From Desulfovibrio psychrotolerans (GTDB lineage Bacteria > Desulfobacterota > Desulfovibrionia > Desulfovibrionales > Desulfovibrionaceae), in the NCBI RefSeq assembly GCF_013340305.1, contig NZ_BLVP01000007.1, positions 124,001-188,000 of the forward strand: 64,000 nucleotides of DNA, read 5' to 3'. A program made the translations under genes and the position numbers. Below the pieces are notes generated by a model. The model saw nothing but the letters and a program-made list of their open reading frames with translations. It made no database searches and was not told where the DNA came from. How positions within the stretch are numbered: position 1 is the stretch's first letter; the number at the start of each line of letters is the position of its first letter. Of the stretch, positions 2,544-4,206 are shown piece by piece.

Positions 2544-3089
2544 ATGTCAGACACTCCTCCGCTCCGGCAGCCCGTGGCCACGGATGAAAAGTGTATCAGC
2601 GTCATCGGCATGGCCGGTGCCGGAAAAAGCACCGTGGGCAAAGCGCTGGCAAACGCTCTGAGCTGGGCGTTCATGGATTCGGACCATATCATAGAGGCAC
2701 ACTACGGCACGCGCCTGCAAGACGTGGCAGACAGCATGACCAAGGATGACTTCCTTGACGTGGAGGGCGAGATAATCCGCCGTATCGGCGCACGCCGCAC
2801 CGTCATTTCCACCGGCGGCAGCGTTGTCTACAGACAGGCCGCCATAGAGCACCTGCAGAGCCTCGGCCACGTGGTTTACCTGAATGTGGAACTGCCCGTC
2901 ATTCTGGAGCGCATTCGCCACAACCCGGAACGCGGCCTTGCCATCGCGCCGGGGCAGACAGTGGAAGACCTCTATCACGAACGCAGAGCCCTGTACGAAG
3001 CCGCAGCCGACTTCACCGTCTCCTGTGCCGGGCTGTCACCGGATGAATGCGCACAGACCATCGTGCGCTGGCTGGAGTCGCAATCATGA
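2544..3089 (+). CDS. Shikimate-kinase-fold kinase, possible homoserine kinase
   Basis: A 181-residue P-loop kinase with the size and layout of AroK/AroL: Walker A GMAGAGKST (about residues 19-27), FMDSDHIIE, and ERRALYEAAADFTV near the end. Two shikimate-site features are changed. The FRxxE motif reads DFLDVE, losing the arginine that binds the shikimate carboxylate, and the GGG segment reads STGGSVV. Both P-loop and the DxD pair are intact, so it should still bind ATP-Mg. I recall that a shikimate-kinase-like protein fills the missing homoserine kinase step in Desulfovibrio, which would fit. The ATG at 2544 follows TGAGG; a longer frame from 2439 has no support. It overlaps the next gene by four bases. 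Confidence 0.75.
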   Translation: MSDTPPLRQPVATDEKCISVIGMAGAGKSTVGKALANALSWAFMDSDHIIEAHYGTRLQDVADSMTKDDFLDVEGEIIRRIGARRTVISTGGSVVYRQAAIEHLQSLGHVVYLNVELPVILERIRHNPERGLAIAPGQTVEDLYHERRALYEAAADFTVSCAGLSPDECAQTIVRWLESQS

Positions 3090-3694
3090 AAGCTGCTGCC
3101 CGCAAAAAGGGACCGGGTGTCTTCGCCCGTCTGGCCGACCTGTACGAACGCATGTCCGCCGCTTACGCGCACACCGCTGCGCAGGCAGGACTCAGCTGTC
3201 AGGACTGCGACAGAAACTGCTGCGTCAGCTATTTCCAGCACCATACCTATGTGGAATGGAGCTACCTGTGGCGTGGCATGAACGAACTCTCCGCCGCACA
3301 ACGCGACGAGTATCTGAACCGTGCCCGCAACGTGGTGCAGCAATACCGCTTTGCGCTGAACGCAGGGGTCCAGCCCACCGTCATGTGTCCGCTGAATGAT
3401 GACGGCCTGTGCGGCCTCTACCGCCACCGCCTTATGATCTGCCGCCTGCACGGCACCCGCAACACCATGATGCTGCCCAACGGCGAGCGCAGGGTATTTA
3501 CGGGTTGCTTCCGCTTTGCCGACAATGTTAAGGAATTACCAGAGGCGCAGATTCCCGCGCTGGACAGGACGGAACTGTACAGGGAACTCGTGCAGCTGGA
3601 GATGGAATTTGCCGGGCCCAGACTGCGCGTTCTTCCCAGAGTAAACATGACCCTTGCAGAAATGCTCGTGCAGGGTCCGCCTTCCATGCGCTAA
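3086..3694 (+). CDS. YkgJ-like cysteine-cluster protein
   Basis: A 202-residue protein whose ATG overlaps the stop of the upstream kinase (ATGA), indicating translational coupling. Near residue 40 it has CQDCDRNCC, followed by cysteines in TVMCPLNDDGLCGLY, MICRLHG and TGCFRF. This pattern is typical of the YkgJ/CxxCxxCC family, predicted to bind zinc or an iron-sulfur cluster. The biochemical role of that family is not established. No signal peptide or membrane segment is seen, so it is probably cytoplasmic. The coupling suggests a role linked to the kinase, but this is inference. Confidence 0.7.
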   Translation: MKAAARKKGPGVFARLADLYERMSAAYAHTAAQAGLSCQDCDRNCCVSYFQHHTYVEWSYLWRGMNELSAAQRDEYLNRARNVVQQYRFALNAGVQPTVMCPLNDDGLCGLYRHRLMICRLHGTRNTMMLPNGERRVFTGCFRFADNVKELPEAQIPALDRTELYRELVQLEMEFAGPRLRVLPRVNMTLAEMLVQGPPSMR

Positions 3695-3714: not shown

Positions 3715-4206
3715 ATGAAACGAGCCGGGCTTCTCATCCTCCTTCTCATAACGTTTGTCCTTCAGGGCTGCGCGCAGCTTTCCGTCAGCCATCTGGACAA
3801 ACGCCCGTGGATAGCGGAGGCCCCGCAGACCATACATATGCGCTTCTGGCGGTTCGAATTCATGAATATGCCCCTTAAGGAAGGCGTGGGGCTGCAGGGC
3901 ATGGCCTACCCCAATACCGAGCTTTTCCCGGACTGGGCGCGCTGGTATGACCAACTGGCCTTCACGGTCTACCTCAGCGAAAGCTCAGGCACCGTGGTAT
4001 CCAGTGCCCAGCTGGACGTGCTGCCGCGCGAGCTGGGCAAGGAACCGGCCATCCCCTTCGAATTCCGCCTCCCTTCCGGCGGCGCGGATACGCCCCTGTA
4101 CGTCTCCTTCGGCTACCGCATGGTGCTCGCCGAAACACCGTGGAAACCCGGAGCCAGACAGGAAGGACGCATCTATTTTGCCCACGAGGGCGCGCTCTCC
4201 CGCTAG
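3715..4206 (+). CDS. Putative lipoprotein
   Basis: A 163-residue protein with a lipoprotein signal: MKRAGLLILLLITFVLQGC, with the lipobox cysteine at residue 19 (LQGC). The mature part has no recognised domain. It contains alternating polar and hydrophobic segments ending in GRIYFAHEGALSR and could be beta-rich. It starts 20 bases after the YkgJ-like gene on the same strand, so it is probably co-transcribed with it. The residue after the lipid-linked Cys is Ala, not the Asp inner-membrane retention signal of enterics, so outer-membrane sorting is possible. Confidence 0.7.
   Translation: MKRAGLLILLLITFVLQGCAQLSVSHLDKRPWIAEAPQTIHMRFWRFEFMNMPLKEGVGLQGMAYPNTELFPDWARWYDQLAFTVYLSESSGTVVSSAQLDVLPRELGKEPAIPFEFRLPSGGADTPLYVSFGYRMVLAETPWKPGARQEGRIYFAHEGALSR

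Follow-up and report, generated by a model that had tools for sequence, protein, structure and literature searches.

Gene organization at the locus

The window, i.e., the whole stretch of 64,000 nucleotides analysed here, comes from Desulfovibrio psychrotolerans (contig NZ_BLVP01000007.1, positions 124,001 to 188,000 of the forward strand). On its plus strand, 3' of rpsI and of a terminator-like hairpin that we recognized by eye at about 2251-2284, lies an open reading frame (2544-3089) that starts with ATG, stops with TGA and encodes a protein of 181 residues. The sequence GTGAGG, which resembles a ribosome-binding site, stands 7 bases ahead of the ATG, and an alternative upstream start, TTG at 2439, is possible as well.

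The encoded protein has the motifs of the shikimate kinase fold. The P-loop GMAGAGKST (2607-2633, residues 22-30), the site of ATP binding, has its Gly22, Gly27 and Lys28 invariant in our alignment. The DxD pair (2676-2684), Asp45-Ser46-Asp47, is invariant in all groups compared and corresponds to Asp32/Asp34 of MtSK, which serve Mg and the substrate hydroxyl (PMC2593004). Two segments on the substrate side deviate. DFLDVE (2748-2765, residues 69-74) replaces the FRxxE motif, placing Leu71 at the position of the shikimate-binding arginine, and in STGGSVVY (2808-2831) the STGGS of residues 89-93 has Ser93 in place of the third glycine and is followed by Tyr96. These features, from the intact P-loop and DxD pair to DFLDVE and STGGS, had been described in the original prediction and were all found in the reading frame. 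It had passed over two other substrate-side arginines that are retained: the LID arginine Arg130, which contacts the ATP phosphates and forms Arg130-Gly131 (2931-2936) instead of the RP of AroK, and Arg147 (2982-2984), the counterpart of MtSK Arg136 and HpSK Arg132.

The stop codon of the kinase gene overlaps the ATG of the next plus-strand gene (ATGA), which suggests that both are carried on one transcript. This second gene (3086-3694) encodes a Cys-rich protein with the motif CQDCDRNCC; it had no match in Pfam, and a homologue adjoins the kinase gene in most genomes of the order. The following ORF (3715-4206), also without a Pfam match, encodes a lipoprotein-like product with a signal containing LQGCA, and its homologues are found beside the kinase gene in several families of the order.

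The protein belongs to the homoserine kinase family NF040667

The protein matched the curated NCBIfam model NF040667 (hom_kin_desulfo, homoserine kinase) over the full profile (1-163 of 163) with 250.1 bits, exceeding the cut-off of 197 bits by 53 bits. PF01202 gave 119 bits, and this Pfam family sees mainly the fold family. None of the AroK/AroL equivalog models was passed by the protein: the best score was 103.4 bits (cut-off 204), and the AroL model NF002988 gave 97.8 bits (cut-off 161). The AlphaFold2 model, predicted from the window protein and its relatives, had a pLDDT of 91.3 and a pTM of 0.86, and the closest solved structures were shikimate kinases (1kag, 4y0a).

A homoserine kinase of this type is known from Desulfovibrio vulgaris Miyazaki. 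Mutants in DvMF_0971, which had been annotated as shikimate kinase, were rescued by threonine, and DvMF_0971 rescued an E. coli thrB- strain (Price et al. 2018, PMC5764234). The shikimate kinase of that organism is DvMF_1410, which is apparently essential (PMC5764234). In a study of a termite symbiont, RSDT_0983 was likewise read as homoserine kinase (PMC7608387). The gene in the window resembles the DvMF_0971/NF040667 system in passing the model over its full length, in its order-wide distribution, in the presence of a separate canonical shikimate kinase and in the lack of ThrB, and no difference from DvMF_0971 was found; through the model NF040667, we read it as the orthologue of DvMF_0971 in another species.

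A further protein on the shikimate kinase fold is the plant protein SKL1, in which the ATP site is mostly retained, the shikimate site is altered and shikimate kinase activity is absent (PMC2593004). SKL1, however, belongs to a separate plant lineage and has lost the LID motif too.

Threonine pathway and shikimate kinase in the same genome

The genome (completeness 99.86%) encodes homoserine dehydrogenase (hom, C8:374271, 206 bits) and threonine synthase (thrC, C6:32557, 184 bits), and the kinase gene is located apart from both. No known alternative for the step between them exceeded its cut-off in the genome: the best scores were 15.5 bits for thrB (TIGR00191, cut-off 168), 24 bits for thrB_alt (cut-off 256) and 114 bits in the search with TIGR02535 (cut-off 446). 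Since hom and thrC are present and no other known homoserine kinase is above the cut-off, the gap in the pathway would be filled by the gene in the window. ThrB, the GHMP homoserine kinase, catalyzes the same reaction but has an unrelated fold, and it was missing above the cut-off from this genome and from the sampled genomes of the order.

The gene hom is part of a tight run (L083:121-3990, G000:C8) consisting of an aminotransferase, the homoserine dehydrogenase and a phosphoglycerate-mutase-like protein, which reached neither the cut-off of apgM (266.6 bits, cut-off 320) nor that of TIGR02535, 'proposed homoserine kinase' (212.5 bits, cut-off 446).

A separate canonical shikimate kinase is encoded at G000:C8:379670-380146 (PF01202, 144.8 bits). 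It is AroL, with 215.7 bits against a cut-off of 161 and with FRDMES and TGGG intact, and it scored only 88.9 bits with NF040667, compared to 250 bits for the protein in the window. The original prediction, which pointed to genetic evidence from Desulfovibrio for a homoserine kinase resembling shikimate kinase, had proposed looking in the genome for a second, canonical aroK and for thrB; its reading would fail if no other shikimate kinase existed and, together with this, phosphorylation of shikimate could be measured. The second kinase was found, no thrB exceeded the cut-off, and the genetic evidence is that of Price et al. 2018 (PMC5764234).

Distribution in Desulfovibrionales

The NF040667 cut-off was passed in 37 of the 39 genomes of the order, and one more genome had a match at 191.9 bits; the remaining one, G033, had a weak match alone. 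No genome of the 39 had thrB above the cut-off. For the phylum as a whole, the lack of thrB says little by itself, as only 7 of 395 genomes matched it at 1e-30. In G033, a degraded copy of the kinase gene lies beside the same Cys-rich neighbour (L070, G033:C116:64200-65900, minus strand); it is without the P-loop glycine and without the equivalent of Arg147, and a thrB search of this genome was negative.

Diagnostic residues of the substrate site

We aligned 38 orthologues of the order with 36 AroK/AroL paralogues from the same genomes and with E. coli AroK. The P-loop, both aspartates, the LID arginine and Arg147 are common to the orthologues and AroK/AroL, Arg147 being present in 38 of 38 orthologues and in all 35 AroK/AroL sequences that have a residue there. 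Ser93 (the third glycine of TGGG) is found in 38/38 orthologues, whereas all 37 AroK/AroL proteins have glycine. Tyr96, three residues after Ser93, is likewise present in 38/38 orthologues and in 0/37 AroK/AroL, and RG in the LID in 37/38 orthologues. Position 71 is occupied by Leu in 34, Val in two, Met in one and Arg in one of the 38 orthologues, as compared to Arg in 37/37 AroK/AroL. Because Ser93, Tyr96 and Leu71 are fixed or nearly so across the orthologues, they are not sequencing noise. Judged by this alignment, the fixed changes of the family are the replacement of the TGGG glycine by serine, the tyrosine at +3 and the change of RP to RG in the LID.

The loss of the FRxxE arginine, on which the original prediction had built its argument for another substrate, is real in the window protein (Leu71) but is not a signature of the family. 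Arginine at this position is kept by L025, a member of the order above the cut-off (224 bits), and among 20 relatives from outside the order found with the family model Arg71 was present in 15, while Ser93 was present in 20, Tyr96 in 19 and Arg147 in 20. As arginine was also kept in 19 of 66 loci of the contig scan described below, we rejected its loss as a diagnostic of the substrate switch. It seems to be a trait of most of the order rather than of the enzyme type, the relatives outside the order being candidate homoserine kinases. Alternatively, the loss may have gone with a substrate switch within the order; L025, which retains the arginine, speaks against this.

In MtSK, shikimate is contacted by Arg58, Arg117, Arg136, Asp34, Phe49 and Gly79-81 (table in PMC2593004), and its carboxyl group is bound by Arg58 and Arg136 (PMC3646032). 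In the H. pylori enzyme, R57A and R57K retain 2% activity and F48A none, and the ligand contacts listed include the main-chain N of Gly81 (PMC3306394). The protein in the window has Leu71, Ala62 and Ser93 at those places of HpSK, which makes efficient phosphorylation of shikimate unlikely. Of the two carboxylate-binding arginines, the alignment thus places one as lost (position 71) and the other, Arg147, as retained. Homoserine also has a carboxylate, and Arg147 is therefore our proposed anchor for it.

Function of the enzyme and alternative explanations

We conclude that the gene in the window almost certainly encodes a non-GHMP homoserine kinase of threonine synthesis that is built on the shikimate kinase fold. 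It is an ordinary orthologue of an enzyme already known and curated, with nothing new in its identity. The enzyme (EC 2.7.1.39) would produce O-phosphohomoserine for threonine synthase. As in AroK, ATP-Mg would be held by the P-loop, Asp45 and the LID arginine Arg130, and Asp47 would position the hydroxyl of the substrate. The carboxylate of homoserine is probably bound by Arg147, and Leu71, Ser93 and Tyr96 may reshape the pocket that fits the shikimate ring in AroK. Two points count against this reading: the distance of the gene from hom and thrC, and the mutase-like gene, a relative of TIGR02535, immediately 3' of hom.

It is very unlikely that the gene encodes a second shikimate kinase, an isozyme of AroK whose substrate site has diverged. 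The fold, the Pfam family and the retained Asp47, Arg130 and Arg147 are indeed those of shikimate kinases. However, the scores with every AroK/AroL equivalog model were far under the cut-off, the protein differs from AroK/AroL by leucine for the arginine of FRxxE, serine for the third glycine, tyrosine three residues further on and RG for RP in the LID, and the first two of these changes affect shikimate contacts, the leucine at the position where R57A and R57K were almost inactive in H. pylori. Furthermore, the genome already has a canonical AroL, and the Desulfovibrio orthologue rescues a thrB- strain (PMC5764234). The objection of the original prediction to the name aroK is borne out by the homoserine kinase model, the separate AroL and the genetic evidence for DvMF_0971. 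Under the name aroK, the annotation would wrongly make the organism a threonine auxotroph and give it a second shikimate kinase that it does not have.

A bifunctional enzyme acting mainly on homoserine and additionally on shikimate is just as improbable. The common fold and the common logic of a substrate with a carboxylate and a hydroxyl would allow it, and with 20-34% identity to the AroK/AroL set some activity with shikimate may be conceivable. Nevertheless, side chains of the shikimate pocket are lost, and the other shikimate kinase of D. vulgaris is apparently essential and is thus not replaced by the homoserine kinase gene.

Least probable of all is that homoserine is phosphorylated by the mutase-like protein beside hom (L083:2641-3990), the gene in the window having another role: the mutase-like gene lies immediately 3' of hom and is related to TIGR02535 (212 bits), but its best model is apgM, its score is far under the TIGR02535 cut-off of 446 bits, the TIGR02535 member BT2402 failed to rescue an E. 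coli thrB- strain (PMC7311316), and the Desulfovibrio gene of the shikimate kinase-like type did rescue one (PMC5764234).

Relatives outside the order

In the draw of 395 genomes from the phylum, 17 were over the NF040667 cut-off and 44 further ones matched at 158-186 bits. Among 14 named controls, a match of this strength was seen in Methanosarcina acetivorans alone, which belongs to the three controls without thrB at 1e-30. A contig scan based on the alignment yielded 80 loci, 14 from the Desulfovibrio group and 66 from elsewhere, including Lachnospiraceae, Oscillospiraceae, Marinobacter, SAR86, Nitrospirota, Methanosarcinales and Methanospirillum; the scan partly selects for TGGS, so that the serine in all loci is no independent evidence. 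For ten scanned members of this wider clade, which extends to gut Clostridia, marine bacteria and methanogens, NF040667 was the best model (151-191 bits, all under the cut-off). In a rapidly computed tree, in which many inner branches have weak support, the relatives from outside the order grouped with its homoserine kinases, and one branch (SH-aLRT 92) separated them from all AroK/AroL.

None of 30 genomes searched with TIGR00191, 28 of them from the wider clade, had a match at 1e-20. This fits a role as homoserine kinase, but thrB may be rare in those families in any case; two Roseburia genomes are reported to lack homoserine kinase (PMC7478625). Whether the TGGS-Y clade (Lachnospiraceae and other Clostridia, Marinobacter, SAR86, Nitrospirota, many Desulfobacterota, Methanosarcinales and Methanospirillum) forms a wide, unrecognised homoserine kinase family, with the Desulfovibrio enzyme as one branch, is evenly balanced on these comparisons. 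If it does, the 'missing ThrB' so often met in threonine synthesis would be explained in part. Few pathways are left incomplete as often as this one when pathways are predicted from genomes; GapMind, for instance, gave the ThrB step low confidence in 29 of 148 prototrophs (PMC7311316). The clade, which has the fixed residues of the Desulfovibrio enzyme and occurs in genomes where no ThrB was detected, offers a cheap and concrete candidate for part of this gap.

Two other kinds of evidence were discarded for the wider clade. Gene neighbourhood gave no link to threonine metabolism, with no homologues of hom or thrC within 4 kb of the loci examined (in our own ORF picks, in which some genes were lost), and co-occurrence with TIGR02535 was uninformative, since 326 of the 395 phylum genomes have it. 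A RidA-like gene adjoins the kinase-like gene in 6 Lachnospiraceae loci, a pattern too weak to use. The TGGS-Y loci of our collection are L127-L193 except L129, plus L094-L113, and come from Clostridia, Gammaproteobacteria, methanogens and Desulfobacterota.
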